Below, in pieces: positions 1-26,638 of a stretch of DNA of 32,164 nucleotides (positions are counted from its first letter, which is position 1; each line of letters starts with the position of its first letter). Where the stretch lies: positions 1-32,164 of the forward strand of contig SOET01000045.1 in the NCBI GenBank assembly GCA_021646465.1, given 5' to 3'. The stretch is from Candidatus Kuenenia hertensis. GTDB lineage: Bacteria > Planctomycetota > Brocadiia > Brocadiales > Brocadiaceae. Under the pieces are notes generated by a model that made no database searches, was not told the DNA's origin, and was given only the letters and a program-made list of their open reading frames with translations. The position numbers and the translations under genes were made by a program.

Positions 1-20
1 CAACTCACTTCTATGAATAA
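1..20 (+). CDS. 3' end of an upstream OmcB/DUF11 paralogue (partial)
   Basis: The first bases read, from position 3, Thr-His-Phe-Tyr-Glu-stop (TAA at 18-20). These are the same last residues and stop as the complete OmcB-like gene ending at 2253, and the next 120 bases after the stop also match. The window therefore starts inside the last codons of another member of the tandem family. Only the tail is visible, so nothing can be said about its N-terminus. Confidence 0.85.
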
Positions 21-110
21 TTTGCTTTGTGTGGTCAAGTTTATTTATGTTTACGATGGTGTGGTTGCATAGGGTAGCGTAGTAGTATGTATACCCGGAA
101 AGGGAAGTAG

Positions 111-137
111 AAAGCCAGTTCTTAAAGCTGGCTTTTT
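111..137 (+). terminator. Rho-independent terminator of the upstream OmcB-like paralogue
   Basis: AAAGCCAGTT (111-120) can pair with AGCTGGCTTT (126-135) across a 5-nt loop with one G-T wobble, and the stem runs into a T-rich tail. It lies about 90 nt after the stop codon at 18-20 and is matched by the stronger hairpin at 2343-2371. Confidence 0.8.
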
Positions 138-142
138 GCTTT

Positions 143-612
143 AGGGCGTATAATGACGCTTGCAAGCTGGGGGGATGTGGTGGAGCTGGCGGTGAGTTCG
201 GTATGAAGGCTCAGAAGCGCTCTTTGTGAAGTATGGATAGATGTTGATTCACGGTGGATGGTGTGTATGGGAATCAAGAGGGGGCGCCTATTGCCGACTG
301 GGCAGGGGTGTCAACAATGCAACACATCCTTTGTTTCAGCGATAAACGCCATCTAAGGGATGATAACACTTCTGTCCCCTCCTTGTTGTGGATTAAAAAC
401 TACTTCCCTGACTGTCGGCAGACAGGGAAGTGGAAGTGCTTATACGGGTAATGGAGTAGTGGAATTCATGAAGGTAAGGGTATTACAAAAGGCGGATTTT
501 TACTTTGTAAAATCATTTGCAGAATTTAGGATTGATTTTCTAAGAAATGTGTGATTCAATTTGCTACTTGCATTTATCAATGATTATTTAGGAAAGGAAA
601 AGGAGTCGCATT
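143..612 (+). other. 470-nt noncoding region upstream of the first full OmcB-like gene
   Basis: I see no convincing gene here. The short open frames lack a ribosome binding site and recognisable motifs. The region contains the palindrome at 402-431 and ends with the AGGAG site (601-605) that serves the gene at 613. No known riboswitch was recognised. The promoter for the downstream gene should be in the AT-rich 470-590 part, but I could not fix its boxes. Confidence 0.5.
402..431. repeat. Palindromic dispersed repeat, family A, copy 1
   Basis: ACTTCCCTG (402-410) is the exact reverse complement of CAGGGAAGT (423-431). Between them lies CTGTCGGCAGACAG, which can form a second, competing hairpin. 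The core CTGTCGGCAGACAGGGA is identical to the core of the copy at 17447-17463. A folded repeat with two exclusive stems, found again in the window, suggests a REP-like mobile palindrome rather than a terminator. Confidence 0.7.
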
Positions 613-2253
613 TTGAAAGCAGAGTATTTGAAAAGATTTTTTTTCGTTGTGCCGTTTTTTGTATTGTGGGTCGCTTTTAGCAATAATTCGTGGGGATGGG
701 GTTTCAAACATAGTGATGATGATAAAGGAAAGCATTATCACGGACATGTAAATGAGGATCCGGGGCCGAGACATTACGGTACGGCACATGAAAAGCCAAA
801 AGAAGAGCCAAAGGCAGAACCAAAACCTGATATGCTCATTACCTCTATGGCGTATCCAACAGGGAATAAGGACTGTTGCAGTGTCATTTATATGGAAAAG
901 ATCGCACCGAGAACAGGCGCCGTTGGCGTTCCGTATGAATATACAATAAAGGTTACAAATCTTATAGATAGCAAAGTGGAAGACGTTGAGGTTCTTCATA
1001 GTTTGCCGGGCAACTTTACGGTAACTAGTGTGGATCCAGCCACGGTATCAAGTATCAGTGACAGCATGAAAGAAGGTGTTGCGGTATGGGAATTAGGGAC
1101 ATTGGAGGCGCATGAAACAAAAATTATCAAGGTGGCAGGCACCCCTTCCGCAGAGGGAAAAATGCCCTTTTGTACCGATCTTGAATACCGATTGCCGGAT
1201 ATTTGTTTAGAGCCGGATATATTACAACCAAAATTAATGCTTTCCAAGAAGGCTCCTGAAAAGGTATTGCTTTGTGATACGATACCTTTAACATTTGAAG
1301 TGAAGAACAGCGGAACCGGATTTGCGAAAAATGTCCAGATAAAAGAATCGCTACCCGAGGGATTGACAACGCAGGACGGCCATAGCAGTGTTATTCTGAA
1401 GGTGGGTACTCTTGCACCCGGAGAGTCAAGGACGGCAACGCTGAACGTGACCGCTGAAGAAATTGGTGAATATCACAATGTTGCAACAGCAGTTGCAGAT
1501 GGAGGATTGAGCGTAGAATCCAATAAAACAACCACTGTGGTACAACAGCCAGAATTGAAGATTACAAAAACAGGTCCGGAAAAGATTTACCTTGGCCGCA
1601 ACATTACCTATGACATATCGGTAAGCAATGTTGGAAATGGTCCTGCCGCATCGACAGTGGTTACGGATACAATTCTCGCAAATGCCACATTTATAAGTGC
1701 CAGTGATGGCGGTGTGATGTCTGGAAATGCCATACAATGGAACGTAGGAACGTTACAGCCGAATGATTCAAAAAAGATGAGTGTTACTTTGAAACCAAAT
1801 GGTATGGGCACTGTTGAAGATAAGGCTGCTGCTGAAGCGGTTTGTGCAGATGCCGTATCTGCAACGGCAAAGACTGATGTTCTCGGTATTGCTGCGATAT
1901 TGCTTGAGGTAATTGACGTAGAAGACCCGGTAGAAGTGGGTAAAAATGTTACATACATAATTACTGTAACTAATCAAGGGTCTGAGCATAGCAAAAATGT
2001 GAGGATAACATGTACACTGGAACCTACCATGGGATATGTATCCTCAAGCGGACCTACCGCAGGAACACTTGGCGGCGAAGGAAAGGTAGTGACATTTAGT
2101 CCGTTACCAAGTTTGGCGCCTAAAGCACAGGCATCGTGGAAGGTTGTCGTTAATGCAGCTGAGGCCGGTGATGTAAGGTTTAAAGTCGATATGACGGATG
2201 ATCGTTTAGAGAGACCTGTAGAAGAAACCGAGGCGACTCACTTCTATGAATAA
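613..2253 (+). CDS. OmcB-like secreted DUF11-repeat envelope protein
   Basis: A 546-residue protein starting at TTG 613, chosen because AGGAG (601-605) lies 7 nt upstream and no ATG is near. A hydrophobic signal segment (residues 8-23) is followed by a His-, Glu- and Pro-rich linker (about 34-75) and then four DUF11/beta-sandwich units (about 97-190, 205-305, 314-420, 430-530), each with the recurring pattern of 'V-N-G-G-A-V-V-D-LP'. Cysteines at 88, 89, 187, 198, 221, 411 and 467 could make disulfides. The segment KAPEKVLLCDTIPLTFEVKN and the one after it strongly recall chlamydial OmcB, the cysteine-rich outer envelope protein that replaces peptidoglycan as a disulfide scaffold. By inference this is a structural cell-envelope protein exported by Sec. 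It is 60-70% identical by eye to its neighbour at 2499 in the last 340 residues. Confidence 0.85.
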   Translation: MKAEYLKRFFFVVPFFVLWVAFSNNSWGWGFKHSDDDKGKHYHGHVNEDPGPRHYGTAHEKPKEEPKAEPKPDMLITSMAYPTGNKDCCSVIYMEKIAPRTGAVGVPYEYTIKVTNLIDSKVEDVEVLHSLPGNFTVTSVDPATVSSISDSMKEGVAVWELGTLEAHETKIIKVAGTPSAEGKMPFCTDLEYRLPDICLEPDILQPKLMLSKKAPEKVLLCDTIPLTFEVKNSGTGFAKNVQIKESLPEGLTTQDGHSSVILKVGTLAPGESRTATLNVTAEEIGEYHNVATAVADGGLSVESNKTTTVVQQPELKITKTGPEKIYLGRNITYDISVSNVGNGPAASTVVTDTILANATFISASDGGVMSGNAIQWNVGTLQPNDSKKMSVTLKPNGMGTVEDKAAAEAVCADAVSATAKTDVLGIAAILLEVIDVEDPVEVGKNVTYIITVTNQGSEHSKNVRITCTLEPTMGYVSSSGPTAGTLGGEGKVVTFSPLPSLAPKAQASWKVVVNAAEAGDVRFKVDMTDDRLERPVEETEATHFYE

Positions 2254-2376
2254 TTTGCTTTGTGTGGTCAAGTTTATTTATGTTTACGATGGTGTGGTTG
2301 CATAGGGTAGCGTAGTAATATGGTAAACCCGGAAAGGGAAGCAAAAAGCCAGCTCTTAAAGCTGGCTTTTTGCTTT
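2234..2376 (+). repeat. Direct repeat, copy 2: gene 3' end plus 3' flank and terminator
   Basis: Nearly identical to 1-142. The match begins in the last codons of the gene and stops just after the terminator hairpin. The third family member (stop at 4094) has no such flank, so the first two genes were duplicated together more recently. Confidence 0.9.
2343..2371 (+). terminator. Rho-independent terminator of the first complete OmcB-like gene
   Basis: AAAAAGCCAGCT (2343-2354) pairs perfectly with AGCTGGCTTTTT (2360-2371) over a 5-nt loop, and T-rich sequence follows. It sits 89 nt after the stop at 2253, so the next gene at 2499 probably has its own promoter in 2380-2480. Confidence 0.88.
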
Positions 2377-2498
2377 TTCTATAGAAATAGTTGTTGTGGA
2401 TATTTCACAAAAAAAGTAATATCTGTTGGTTGCATTAAATATATAGATTATGTTGTGTGCGTACATAAAATAACATTTGTTGATAAGGAGTATATCGT

Positions 2499-4094
2499 AT
2501 GAATGAACATAAAAGAAGATTTTTTATGCTGAGCATCCTTTTTCTCTCATTGTCATTTTTCTATGGTTGCAGTTATACAAGAAGTTATTTTTCGTATGAT
2601 GAAGACGTTACCTCATCAGGCAGATATAATGAGTCACAAAAAGAATCTGAAAAAATATATTCTGAAAAGGAAAAAATAGAATCTGATTCTTCCGGAGAAT
2701 ATAAAAGACTTCGTATGGCAGATAAACAGCACGGCCTGGTGTTAATTGATAAAAATCTTCCTTCGGAACCGCAAGTTGGCCAGATATTTGATTATGTAAT
2801 TATGGTTACCAATGTTTCTGATCAGAAACTCATGGATGTAAAAATAATCGAAACGCTGTCCAACAATTTTGAAATGAAAAATTCCATTCCGAAAATAAGC
2901 GATGCGGTCGGGAGGAATGTTGTACAGTGGAACATAGGAGATTTATCCCCGGATGAAAACAAATCAATCAGGGTTTTCGGTATTCCTGCGAAAGAGGGTA
3001 CGATGTCTTTCTGTACGGATGTAAACTACCGTTTGCCGCCGTTTTGTGCGATTACGAATGTGGTACAGCCAAAGTTATTACTTACTAAGAATGCGCCATC
3101 AACGGTCTTGATTTGTGATGTGATACCCATGACGTTTGTTGTGCAGAATTCAGGAACCGGGTATGCAAAAAATGTTCAGATAAAAGAATCATTGCCCGAG
3201 GGGCTTGCCACACAGGACGGCCACTCCAGTGTCATTCTGAAAGTAGGTACCCTTGCTCCCGGTGAAACCAGGACGCTGTCGTTAAATGTAACAGCAGATA
3301 AAACGGGAGAGTATAATAATATTGCAACAGTGGCTGCTGACGGAGGGTTGAGTGCCGAATCGAATAAGACAACCACCGTTGTGCAAAAACCGGAATTAAA
3401 GATCGTAAAAAAGGGTCCGGGAAAGATCTACCTTGGCCGTGACATAACGTATGATATGTCAGTGAGCAATGTAGGAAACGGCCCTGCAGGGTCAACGGTA
3501 GTGGAAGATACAATTCCCGCAAATACTTCATTTTTAAGCGCCAGTTACGGAGGAGTGTTGTCTGCCGGTTCAGTTGTTTGGAATTTGGGCACATTGTATC
3601 CAAAAGACACGAAAGAGTTGCGTATCACTTTGCGTCCCGATGGTCTTGGTTCGGTTTTGAACAGGGCGACTGCTAAGTCTGTTTGCGCAGATGCTGTGTC
3701 CGCAACTGCCGTAACCGAAGTATTGGGTATTGCTGCAATATTGCTCGAGGTAATTGATGTGGAAGATCCGGTTGAGGTTGGCAACAATACAACTTACGTT
3801 ATTACGGTAACCAACCAGGGTTCGGACCATAGTGAAAATGTTACAATATCATGTATGCTGGAAGATACCATGGAGTACGTGTCCTCATCAGGTGCAACCG
3901 GAGGATTACTTGCCGGAGAGGGCAAGATAGTACGTTTTGATCCGTTGCCAAGTTTGGCGCCAAAAGCACAGGCGACATGGAAAGTTGTTATAAATGCCCT
4001 GCGCGAAGGCGATGTCCGGTTCAAAGTCTCTATGAAGGATGATCGTCTGGATAGACCGGTGGAAGAAACGGAGGCCACCAATTTTTATAAGTAA
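2499..4094 (+). CDS. OmcB-like DUF11-repeat lipoprotein
   Basis: A 531-residue protein with AAGGAG (2485-2490) 8 nt before the ATG. The N-terminus is a lysine/arginine-rich start, a hydrophobic stretch (residues 8-22) and Cys24 in the setting FFYGC, which reads as a slightly non-canonical lipobox. A charged Ser/Glu/Lys linker follows (about 35-70), then four DUF11 units as in the neighbour. The Cys-Cys pair of the neighbour's first unit is missing here, but the paired cysteines of units 1-2 (FCTDVNYRLPPFC, LICDV) and of unit 3 (VCADAV) are kept. By inference it is a lipid-anchored partner of the secreted protein encoded just upstream, comparable to the lipoprotein/large protein pair (OmcA/OmcB) in chlamydiae, although OmcA itself is small and unrelated in sequence. 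Confidence 0.83.
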   Translation: MNEHKRRFFMLSILFLSLSFFYGCSYTRSYFSYDEDVTSSGRYNESQKESEKIYSEKEKIESDSSGEYKRLRMADKQHGLVLIDKNLPSEPQVGQIFDYVIMVTNVSDQKLMDVKIIETLSNNFEMKNSIPKISDAVGRNVVQWNIGDLSPDENKSIRVFGIPAKEGTMSFCTDVNYRLPPFCAITNVVQPKLLLTKNAPSTVLICDVIPMTFVVQNSGTGYAKNVQIKESLPEGLATQDGHSSVILKVGTLAPGETRTLSLNVTADKTGEYNNIATVAADGGLSAESNKTTTVVQKPELKIVKKGPGKIYLGRDITYDMSVSNVGNGPAGSTVVEDTIPANTSFLSASYGGVLSAGSVVWNLGTLYPKDTKELRITLRPDGLGSVLNRATAKSVCADAVSATAVTEVLGIAAILLEVIDVEDPVEVGNNTTYVITVTNQGSDHSENVTISCMLEDTMEYVSSSGATGGLLAGEGKIVRFDPLPSLAPKAQATWKVVINALREGDVRFKVSMKDDRLDRPVEETEATNFYK

Positions 4095-20171: not shown

Positions 20172-23100
20172 TCAACCCTTTCCCGCCACAATTGCAATCT
20201 CGTCATCGGTTAAACCGTATAATTTATAAACCATCTTGTCAATCCCTTTTTCAAGTGCCAACGTGTCAGCATTGGGGGTCTTTTTGCTTTAGAGAAAGGA
20301 TTTGGTCAACGAGGGTGATGAAGGGCTGCTGGGCTTTTAAATGAATATCCTTTACAGGCAGCTTATCTATGTAATACTTATCGAAATGCATTGTTCTTAC
20401 TGCTCTATTAAAAACAAACCAGTAATAGAACCATGAAGCAAGTTGTGAATTAAGTATTGCAAGCACATACTGAAGCGCAAACTTATCTACAGTTAAATGA
20501 GTATTCATTACTGTATCAAGGGTTAAAAACCCCTCAGTATAAATTGTTGCCATGATGATTATCCTGTCGTATGGATTCATAATATGAGCAACAATATTTT
20601 GGGATAAAATTTTAGGTTTTAAAAGCTCTTTGACTTTTGTACCGGACAAAATTTCCTTAGGCAAGGTTATGTTATCAATGTCTCCATAGATTTTATATTT
20701 GCCAATGTTTTTGCCTCTTAAAATCGGTTGTCCCGATTTTGATATCCTGCGTTGAAATGGCAAACCTCTAAATGTTTTTGATATTTCGGAAAGCAGTACC
20801 GTATTCTGCCGTAATTTATCCAGAATGCCTTGTATTCTGTTGTCAACATACATCGGCAAAATATCGAGCCGGTCTATAAGTTTATAATCACCTTTACCGT
20901 TGACTTTTATTTCTCCATCCCACCCTTCTCCGGCAGAAAATTGGTAAGAGCTACCAGCTGTTTCTTTTGAGATGCAAATAATTGTCTGCTCTAATAACAC
21001 TGCTTCAAATGCTTTACAGACGTCAATAACCGATAACAACCTGTTCTTATGGGTAACTAACGATCTCGTTTTTTCCAGCCTTCATAAAAAGATAAAGATT
21101 TTGGGATAATGCAGGCTATTACGCCTTTAGAGTTGGTTAATTTGTTGCCAACTTCTATAAAGAAGGACGCTGAATTTTTTTGTCTGTCAAAAAGTTTATA
21201 ATTTCCCGTAAGGTATTCAATATCATCAATTTCCGCTCCATAAGGCGGATTCCCAATCACCACATCAAACCCATCTTTAACGCCAAACATCCACTCAGAG
21301 TCAAAGAAGGGTGCGGAGGTATTTTGGTCGTAAGGATCCCATGCGGCAATTTTTTTGGCAGTGGCAGGTTGGAAGTCGTGATTCTTTATGAGCAATTCCG
21401 CCAGTTCATCACGCAGTTGCTTGTCTTTTATGCGGCAGTTTTCCTTACGCCGGGGCGTCCTGGCTGCAAAGTAATCGTGGCGTACTTTTTTCAGTTCTGT
21501 CTTTTTCTTTTCTATATTCGGGTTGGTAAAAAGATGGGGCGTTCTTTTTCCAATCCTATCAGTGTGTTGGCTGCCACAAATTTGGTTTCAAGGTTTGGCA
21601 GGGGACGTATGCCAAGGTTTTCCTTGCTATAGTTTACCCTCTGGTCAACAATCAGGGAGATAAAGAACCGCAGTTTTGCTATCTGTACGGCGATGGGTTG
21701 TATATCAATCCCATAAATACAGTTCTCAATGAGGTACAGCTTGTGGCCATAGTCCAGCTCGTTGTTATTAAATGCCTCTTCAATATCCCTGCGTGTGTTC
21801 TGCCTGTCTTCAATCACCTTCTCCCTGATGCGGGTGTCTGAAATGCCTTCGGCTTCTTCAATGAGTTTATCTACCGTGCTTAGCTGCTGGTGTTTCCAGT
21901 GGACGTTGTTGGGGTCAAGTTTGTGCAGCATATGAACCATCTTGTGCAATATGCCCATGGGGAAGGTGCCGGAGCCGCAGGCAGGGTCCACAATTTACAG
22001 GTATCTATTGCATTAATCAGCGCTTCGGTTTCTGCAGTATTGAAGGGGTTTGGGTTTTCAGAGTAACTTAGCAGGTCACGCAATCTTTCTTCATCTTTAT
22101 CAGTACCGTTAGCGCCTTTGCTTGGTGATCCTTAGCTTTACTCAGAATGACATTGCAGGACAGACTGTTTAAGGCAGGCAATCAATGATTCATCCACCAT
22201 GTAGTTCACGATCTCACGGGGTGTATAAAACGAACCGGTCTGCTTGCGGGCAGTGGTCCTCGTTTCGGGATTGTAGTTTGCTAAAAGATTTTCAAATACC
22301 TTGCCCAGTAATTCGGGGTCGAGGGCTATTTCTTCTTCAATGGGCGTGTTTTCTGTAATAGTGAATTTGTAGCTGTTCAGGATGTCAATAAGTCCGCGCA
22401 CCTTTTCTTTGCTTTTTTTGGGCGAACCGTAAATCTTACTCAGATCGACTTCCACACCCTTCTCATTAAAAAAGAGTTCGTCCGGCACTTTAAGCACATT
22501 ATCTTCCCGGTCGCTGAAACTATCAATGCGGATGCGCCTTCGTTTGTTCTTTTCGTCCAGTTCCTTATCGAGACATTCAAACAAACCGCCGTTGAGGAAA
22601 GGGATCGGGGCAAAGTATTGTTCCAGTGTTTCAGTTGGCCTTACAAATTCACTCTCATAGCGGAATACGTTGTGAATGAAATAATGCCCGTCCCTGCCGC
22701 TGTCATTTTTCGTCCCGAACCTGCGCTTGCCCATTTCAGTGTTTAACGTGGCAAAGAACAGATTCTGCAGGATTGCTTTGTAGTAAGTGCTTTGCCTGCT
22801 GTCAGTATATTTGAGCAGTTTCTTCAGTTCCTTTTCATCAAATAATTCATCCGGTATCAACCTTTTTTCCTTCAAAAACCAGACAAATATTAAACGGGTA
22901 ATCAGGCGGATAACGCCGGTTGCATTCCGGACGTCTTTTTCCTTTTCTGCATCATCGGGGAATTCCACTTCCTGTATAGCCCGGAAATACCAGTTGGCAA
23001 TTTCCTTAAAAAATCGTTTATTGAGTTCTTTGGTATCCAGCGTATTCTGCCAGGCATTGTGCAATTCAACAAAATTGGTGAATTTGTGTTTGATTTTTAG

Positions 23101-23730
23101 CTCGTCAAATGAAAGGTCGAAGAGGATTTCTATGTGGGCGCAGTGGGTGACAACCCCATCTTCCACCCCCGTCCTGCGGACACCCCCGCCAGCGTGGGAT
23201 ATGCAGATGTCTTTGATGAGGGTTACTTTCTCCAGCACGTCTTTGCTTTCGTCCCGTTTGTGCAGCCTGCGGTTGATGACAGAAAGGGTAAGCGAAAAAC
23301 CGTGTTTGAATAAAATCATTACGGGCATGGGAAACAGGCGATTGACTTCGCGGGTGATGTGTGAAAGTTCTGTTCTGCTGTAATGTTCTTTTGCCAGTTC
23401 TATGGCAAAAAATAAATATGTTTCAATGACGGTGCTGTTGACCTGTCTGGTATCAAACAGTGATAACTGACCCGAAATCTCTTCCTTTGATAACTGAAAT
23501 AGCAGGTCAACGTATTTCCACTCTCTTACCAATGCCCTGTCTTCGTCAAACCGGGAGTGATTATTTACGAAAGCATCTTTGAATGTGGTATAGGATGGTT
23601 TTTCCACAGGCGCCCGGCGTTCAGTAATATAGCCAAGGGTCTAAAACAGATTTAACGCATTTTCGGAAAGGTTGCCATTGTTAAACTGCTGAATGGCTTC
23701 CTTTATTTTTTGTCTGAGGTCTTTACTCAT
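20172..23730 (-). pseudogene. Eco57I-like type IIG restriction-methylase, multiply broken
   Basis: The original gene begins at ATG 23730 (MSKDLRQKIKEAIQQF), with a TAG at 23641 where Gln is expected. The methylase motifs appear in order: DPACGSGTFPMG (SAM site, about 21970) and GNPPYGAEIDD (catalytic NPPY, about 21250); TGSFYTPREIVNYMVDESL precedes them. Breaks: the stop at 23641; a repeat insertion and frame loss around 22000-22138; frameshifts near 21540, 21062 and 20272. The tail reads ADTLALEKGIDKMVYKLYGLT and ends at 20172. Such enzymes methylate adenine and cut at a distance with one chain. It follows an orphan HigA and a helicase, as in helicase-plus-methylase defence loci. Nothing here should be functional. 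Confidence 0.88.
22127..22152. repeat. Dispersed repeat, family A, degraded arm inside the type IIG gene
   Basis: GATCCTTAGCTTTACTCAGA followed by ATGACA matches the arm GATTCTT...CCGCTCAGAATGACA of the copy at 17432-17480. It sits exactly where the type IIG reading frame turns to nonsense (…LKQ then SVLQCHSE-stop) and resumes downstream at LRDLLSYSENPNPF. It is therefore a probable insertion that interrupted the gene. Confidence 0.55.
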
Positions 23731-24177: not shown

Positions 24178-26638
24178 CTACTTTATGACTAACCAGGTTA
24201 CTAATTCAAAATTGTCCATATTATTCACCTGTTTTGACTGTGGAATCAATAATGCTCTCCGGTCAGAGGTAAGTTTTTGGTTCATCCGTTTTTTGAATAT
24301 ATGGCATATCTTATCCACGGCTTTTTTGAGCAGTTCCGTATATTTACTCATTTCCTCGCCATTCCTGGTTTCTGTATTGAACAATTCACAAAGCTTCTCA
24401 TAAGGCTCTTTGCGTCCCTGGCACATCAGCCGATATATTTCCAGTATCTGTTTGGCATTGGTGTAGTTGAAACGAACCGTTCCATCTTCCCGAATATAAA
24501 CTAAAAAGTATGGTTGCAAGGGACTTACTTCTTCGTTGCCGTCCGTATCTCCTTTTTGTTTCAAACAAAATATTACACCAGGTCTGATAATTTCTTTTTC
24601 TGCTCCGGCAAAGCGGCTTGTATCCGACGGTTGTGCATGAATGCCTGAGGGTGAAGGGACAACGGCGTATAACCCGAGGGGGGCTTCCTCCAGTTTCCTG
24701 CGGTTGTTTGCTATAAAACCGAGCAATTCTATCCGGAAATCATCTAATGTAAAGTCGGTTAATGAAATACTTTCGTGCATTTCTTCAAGATCGAGTACTT
24801 CGTTTTGCAGTTTTTTCAGTTGCCGGTTGCGGTATCTTAAATCATCGGTGATGAGTTCTTCAATCTGCTCGGTGTTCAGGATATTATCGTCTCCTGTAGC
24901 GGTAACATCCACCAATGCCATGCGAGCCTCCACGCGTTCTTTCAGGTTGATGTAATTATCGGGGTCTTTGGTAGGCCAGAAGTTTACCAGTTGGATTTTA
25001 TTATTCCTGCTTCCCAGTCGGTCAATACGGCCAAAAACGCTGGATGATGCGGACAGGATTCCAGTGAATATCGTAGTTAACCAAAAAATCACAATCCTGC
25101 AGATTCTGCCCTTCGCTGATGCAGTCGGTAGCGATCAGTATATCAATCTCACCTTCCTGCGGCATGGATTTCATTAATTCCCTGCATTTAGAAATGGGAG
25201 AAAAGTTAGAGAGGATGTTTGAGAAATCATTTTTTCCTAATGTGGTTTGTGTGCTGCTGCCCGTCACCAATGCAATATGCAGCCATAAATCTTTTTTAAC
25301 CCAATCTTTCAGGCAATCGTAAAGGTATTGAGCCGTATCGGCAAATGCGGTAAAGACAATTACCTTCCTGTTGTTGCTGTTCAGTGGTTGATTAATTTTT
25401 TGTTCGATTAGTTTTTGAAGGTCTTTCAATTTTGCGTCACGTTCCGGGGTTACCGCAACTGCCGTATTATACAAGTCATTGAGGGCTTCTTTGTCTTTTT
25501 TTAAATCGTTTAACCAATCTTCCAGACGTAAATCAGCTAAATCAAATTTCAATTTTTTCCCTACCTGCCATTGTTCAAGATCATCGGTATTTTCTTCTAA
25601 TTCGTCTTCATCCGGTTCCAATGTTTCCAAAACCTCTTCCTGCGATTTAGCGTTTGATTTAAGGAATTCATTGATTCTGCTTTCAAGTTTTTCAATCTTC
25701 TGAATCGTTCTGTTCATAGAAATCTCAAATGATTCAATGGAACTTTCCAGACGTTTCAGGAAGTTTACTTTCATCATCCCGATGAGGAAGTGTTCACGGT
25801 CGCTCTGCTTAAAGGCAAGGACTTCGGTATCGGCTAATACCTCGTATTTTTCTTTCTTTTCTTCCTTCACATAGGCAGAAGGGTTAAATACCGAAAGCTT
25901 GTATTGCAGGATTTTTTTTGTTCAGCGTATCGTAGGTAAAGAAACGGTCTTTTATATCAATATTCGGGTAGAGGGAATGGGGTTTTAACCGCTCCGGGAA
26001 TTTCCCTATTTATAGTACCATCCTCCTTGGCCTTTTCCATTGGATTACCGCGAAAATTACGGGACTCATCGATAACTACCAAATCATAGGCGCCCCAATT
26101 GAAGTTTTCAAGGTCTATGCCGTTTGCATCGGATTTGCCGGTTATTCTGCCAAGGTCGGTATGGTAAAGGACGGTATAGTTAAACCGGTCTCCGATAAAC
26201 AAATTAAGCACGTTGTTCTGGTTTGCCTGGTAGATTATCCAGTTGGCGGAGAGTTTTTTAGGGCAAAGTACCAGCACCCGGTAGTTCAGTAATTCAAAAT
26301 AGCGGATGACCGCCAATGCCTCAAAAGTTTTACCCAGTCCGACGCTGTCTGCTATGATGCAGCCATTATGTTTCAGGATTTTATTGATAGCGCCTTTTAC
26401 GCCGTCTTTCTGGAAGTCGTACAGCATATTCCAGATTTCACTTTCAAAAAACCCGATACGTTCATCCAGTAGGCCGCCGAGCTTCTGTTCATCAAGATAG
26501 TTTTCAAAGATTTTTGTATGCGTAGATAGTGAAATATGCCGAAACTATTGATACATTTGTGCCTTGTTTTACATTATCTATAAGGAACTGACCTACAGTA
26601 CCGTTCTTATGATTGTCACGGATTGAGGTATTGTCCAT
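24178..26638 (-). pseudogene. SNF2-type helicase with PLD-like start, broken and internally deleted
   Basis: Start ATG at 26638 (MDNTSIRDNHKNGTVGQFLI, then VSIVSAYFTIYAYKNL), typical of the N-terminal PLD-like part of defence helicases. A deletion then joins it out of frame to IFENYLDEQKLGGLLDERIG, Walker A ADSVGLGKTFE and motif II VIDESRNFRG (usually DESH). The frame breaks near 25957, where the middle of the helicase is also missing. The C-terminal helicase part, IATDCISEGQNLQDCDFLVN, ends in a shift caused by one extra A in the run near 25034, before RIDRLGSRNN. The end at 24178 is complete. The intact protein would be about 1,000 residues; this one cannot work. Confidence 0.88.

Follow-up and report, generated by a model that had tools for sequence, protein, structure and literature searches.

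The window, by which I mean the whole 32,164 bp stretch of DNA analysed, opens with a tandem array of genes for OmcB-like DUF11 proteins, whose products may form, on a reading that I hold with about evenly balanced confidence, a pair of lipid-anchored, Ig-like rods that belong to the PVC OmcB-like family and whose domains are braced internally. Family, architecture, conservation and paralogue history are supported outright. The window is one complete contig (C47) of a 4.17 Mb genome in 89 contigs, and its source is an anammox planctomycete, probably of a Kuenenia-like genus, since hydrazine synthase alpha is encoded in the same genome and the relatives include Brocadia and Jettenia. The array connects OmcB, the best known of the disulfide-dependent envelope proteins of chlamydiae, with a broad family in Planctomycetota and Lentisphaerae whose members are mostly lipid-anchored. 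Its four invariant cysteines give studies of the bracing of PVC envelopes a defined point of attack. How conserved exported cysteines are handled in an anaerobe that lacks recognised Dsb enzymes becomes a question as well.

The two complete genes, copies B and C (Table 1), have the boundaries that an earlier note on this DNA had claimed and carry four DUF11 domains each, and that note also rightly took copy C for a lipoprotein and copy B for a secreted protein, the lipobox being present in C only. In a Pfam scan each copy gave four matches to DUF11 (PF01345; E about 1e-42), with scores of 145 and 147 bits that lie above the curated cut-off of 24.6 and place both in the family; all DUF11 matches of the genome are confined to this array. 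The hairpin behind copy B suggests that copy C is probably a transcription unit of its own. The reported presence, at the very start of the window, of the last codons of a relative sharing the end of copy B was borne out, as bases 3-142 and 2236-2376 agree at 135 of the 141 positions that align, in a stretch that includes a terminator-like hairpin of 17-19 bp. This match across both the 3' end and the terminator rules out chance likeness of the first bases.

Table 1. Positions in the window of the array genes, their hairpins and the conserved cysteine codons
Feature	Positions	Strand	Remarks
Copy A, last codons (THFYE-stop)	1..20	+	Cut by contig end; identical to copy B end
Terminator-like hairpin 3' of copy A	104..142	+	-22.7 kcal/mol, z -4.7
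Copy B, OmcB-like secreted protein, four DUF11 domains	613..2253	+	546 aa, 7 Cys, without lipobox; TTG start
Cys187 codon, copy B	1171..1173	+	Invariant
Cys198 codon, copy B	1204..1206	+	Invariant
Cys221 codon, copy B	1273..1275	+	Invariant
Cys411 codon, copy B	1843..1845	+	Invariant
Terminator-like hairpin 3' of copy B	2336..2378	+	-27.6 kcal/mol, z -5.5
Copy C, OmcB-like lipoprotein, four DUF11 domains	2499..4094	+	531 aa; lipobox FYGC, lipid Cys24, 5 further Cys

A third copy is indeed likely, but rather than running off the window it is interrupted by the assembly. Contig C55 of the same genome terminates exactly at residue 99 of the N-terminal part of a third copy; a genome search matched residues 2-89 of this leader on C55, and the 99 residues are 66% identical to the leader of copy B. 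The middle of copy A was found in no contig of the genome, as expected if near-identical copies collapse in assembly. C55 and C47 would accordingly be joined across copy A, a join left undecided by comparison of gene order with G001, the complete relative closest to this genome, in which conservation is limited to the gene pair. The array is therefore likely to comprise three copies, with the assembly broken within the first. The leaders of copies A and B both carry a His-rich motif, YHGHVxExPGPRH (window about 718-807 and C55:28343-28429), which within this genome is restricted to these two copies and recurs in many copies from other Brocadiaceae.

AlphaFold2 folds copy B into Ig-like beta-domains. 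Starting at about residue 201 the pLDDT mostly exceeds 90, and domain 1 is lower, at about 59-87; residues 25-70 form a disordered linker, and a pTM of 0.56 leaves the arrangement of the domains unsure. A sequence search of the PDB gave no real homologue of copies B and C, and the Foldseek matches are multi-Ig proteins, adhesion proteins among them (PrgB, integrins). The proteins would thus be exported and usually lipid-anchored, with a disordered linker leading into four Ig-like DUF11 domains whose chain is probably a stiff rod.

The earlier note regarded the array as a local expansion. This view has to be given up, as the tandem pair is a common feature of the Brocadiaceae and the family was found in 94 of 294 sampled Planctomycetota genomes (E <= 1e-10), as well as in Lentisphaerae. 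Named genomes hold 472 relatives, and the best 80 of these 472 include Brocadia, Jettenia, Scalindua, Phycisphaerae and Lentisphaerae; a tblastn search of plasmids returned generic DUF11 matches and nothing closer, and I found no literature report that treats DUF11/OmcB proteins of the anammox cell envelope. Several Brocadiaceae genomes have no match to the pair. Since it is present in all nine Brocadiaceae genomes of at most 40 contigs, as against 8 of the 23 more fragmented ones (p 0.001), its absence may reflect collapse of near-identical copies in fragmented assemblies. As defined here, the PVC OmcB-like DUF11 lipoprotein family is characterised by four DUF11 domains, four invariant cysteines, an ETEATxFY end and a lipobox. 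Copy C has all of these and copy B all except the lipobox, which is also missing in its nearest relatives (L006 and L007). Because most relatives keep it (the lipobox column is Cys in 117 of the 138 aligned rows of the closer family set), the non-lipidated state of copy B is a derived loss, and the arrangement of one secreted and one lipid-anchored protein is derived in this group of genera.

The relation to OmcB itself, also proposed in the earlier note, stands in part. The proteins belong to the DUF11 family, and the Chlam_OMP6 profile (PF03504; cut-off 34.1) reaches 41-46 bits in some relatives in the phylum, on differing DUF11 domains, but copy B scores 25.1 bits, below the cut-off, copy C gives no match at E <= 1, and the profile run over the whole genome gave no match. 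Chlamydial OmcB (60 kDa cysteine-rich protein, CT443) is likewise exported, made of DUF11 repeats and Cys-bearing, and its length of 553 aa (PMC1403754) is close to the 546 and 531 aa of copies B and C. It is not a lipoprotein, in contrast to copy C, and it is encoded with omcA, whereas no omcA-like small lipobox ORF lies beside copies A, B or C. Moreover, C. trachomatis OmcB has 24 Cys (PMC2615015) against 5-7 non-lipid Cys here, so that copy B with 7 and copy C with 6 including the lipid Cys lack its high cysteine content. Finally, OmcB is cross-linked in chlamydiae, with a Dsb pair proposed for this step, and the present genome yielded no such pair. The resemblance to OmcB is therefore real and membership partial, the link resting on profiles and published descriptions. 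Two longer relatives from other families (L164 in f33 and L169 in f59; 773 and 751 aa) have 20-25 Cys and C-terminal ends resembling NENESTHQY / EEESTHVY, and may approach chlamydial OmcB more closely in cysteine content.

Among planctomycete proteins, an OmcB homologue was reported in Rhodopirellula baltica at 3e-25 (PMC1403754). This relative, CAD72259, is 907 aa long and reportedly Cys-free (PMC1403754); long, Cys-poor members of other Planctomycetota families resemble that description, whereas the Brocadiales/Phycisphaerae type retains the four Cys and the lipobox. The YTV cysteine-rich cell-wall proteins of Planctomycetales (PMC8567305) are Cys-bearing envelope proteins too, but differ in domains and range, and Pfam scans of copies B and C gave no match to that family. 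The S-layer protein of Kuenenia (PMC5088730), a related anammox bacterium, is an envelope protein as well, the comparison here being one of description.

The earlier note would have been refuted by cysteines that are not conserved among orthologues, but they are conserved. C187, C198, C221 and C411, numbered as in copy B, are invariant across 25 phylum-wide sequences, and all four occur in 140 of 183 sequences; the 26 that have none of them are mostly long proteins from other families, which agrees with the reported lack of Cys in the R. baltica homologue (PMC1403754). Among partial patterns, C187 and C198 are jointly lost in 6 sequences and C221 and C411 in 5, while 6 others differ; by an independent-pairs test this co-loss comprises few independent events and is not statistically significant. 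The topology of the Ig fold, from which rather than from coordinates I argue here, would place C187 and C198 on either side of the F-G hairpin in domain 1; C221 (A-B loop, domain 2) and C411 (F-G loop, domain 3) would face the domain 2/3 junction. A C187-C198 bond is thus predicted to brace the end of domain 1, and a C221-C411 bond to bridge domains 2 and 3, so that internal bracing of the rod is the most likely role of the four conserved cysteines.

The earlier note tentatively suggested a chlamydia-like cross-linked layer. In such a layer, intermolecular disulfides would connect the copies with one another and with proteins of the outer membrane. Besides the conserved cysteines themselves, this less likely reading can draw on their odd number (7 in B, 5 in C without the lipid Cys), which leaves at least one unpaired per molecule, on C467, present in 69% of rows without a steady partner, on an extra CC pair in copy B and several Brocadiaceae relatives, and on the about 12 non-lipid Cys of many Brocadia-type relatives. 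In Chlamydia, the outer membrane complex is a proposed substrate of a DsbA/DsbB redox pair (PMC6752827). DsbA, DsbB and VKOR profiles found no match in the present genome, although the same searches were positive in control genomes; among 33 Brocadiaceae genomes, none yielded VKOR and 4 yielded DsbA, the latter limited to the genus g6 and G005. The search covered these three profiles, and disulfides may still be formed by another thioredoxin-fold enzyme. Furthermore, Kuenenia stuttgartiensis possesses peptidoglycan (PMC4432595), so that there is no need for these proteins to stand in for a wall. With cysteines far fewer than in OmcB and no OmcA-like neighbour, such a layer is unlikely, and the cysteines look more like internal braces than like intermolecular links, even internal bonds being not assured without a recognised disulfide-forming enzyme. 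Invariance of the cysteines despite the absence of DsbA, DsbB and VKOR would also fit a role in metal binding or as thiols, with no disulfides at all, in an anaerobe that lacks a Dsb system. The residues concerned are widely spaced along the chain and belong to different domains, they are kept phylum-wide, far beyond anammox bacteria, and another thioredoxin-fold oxidase may be at work. This alternative is quite improbable, internal bracing being the preferred reading.

The history of the pair is uneven along its length. In a tree of domain 1, the upstream and downstream genes of Brocadiaceae form two clades (95 and 92), whereas in a tree of domains 2-4 the paralogues group by genus (Kuenenia-like 100, G010 99, Jettenia 99). 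Likewise, copies B and C are 33% identical in domain 1, against 78% in domain 2, 66% in domain 3 and 78% in domain 4, and copy A follows the same trend, with its diverged leader and its near-identical 3' tail. An old tandem duplication in Brocadiaceae produced two paralogues, which have drifted apart in the linker and the first domain and have stayed alike within each genus in domains 2-4; trees and identities point to concerted evolution, by gene conversion, of a shared rod with divergent heads. There would then be two heads on one common rod, probably co-assembling within one layer of the envelope, be it outer membrane, periplasm or surface, although co-assembly, like location and bond pairing, is deduced from these patterns. 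The homogenised domains 2-4 fit co-assembly, but neutral gene conversion resulting from the likeness of tandem DNA may give the same pattern. That the pair is a co-assembling OmcB-like scaffold, in which gene conversion holds domains 2-4 alike, the heads specialise and disulfides, internal or intermolecular, are formed without DsbA, DsbB or VKOR, is a rather doubtful proposal.

Divergent heads on a shared rod would also suit an adhesin of cell aggregates or of the biofilm matrix, which presents a variable head and a His-rich linker to neighbouring cells and whose cysteines are merely structural. The Ig-like adhesin folds among the Foldseek matches are consistent with this, as are the YHGHVEEEPGPRH linker, conserved among many Brocadiaceae copies, and a methanogen OmcB-like DUF11 protein discussed as an adhesin in aggregates (PMC11224092). 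Since outside Brocadiaceae the family mostly does not occur as tandem pairs and is not tied to granule formers, I regard the adhesin as a tentative and rather unlikely alternative to the internally braced, lipid-anchored rod pair.

Elsewhere in the window, a type IIG restriction-methyltransferase (20266-23607, minus strand) appears to be broken into at least four ORFs, either as a decayed gene or through sequencing frameshifts, and an HKD+Snf2-type helicase of candidate defence systems (24178-26427, minus strand) is split across three ORFs.
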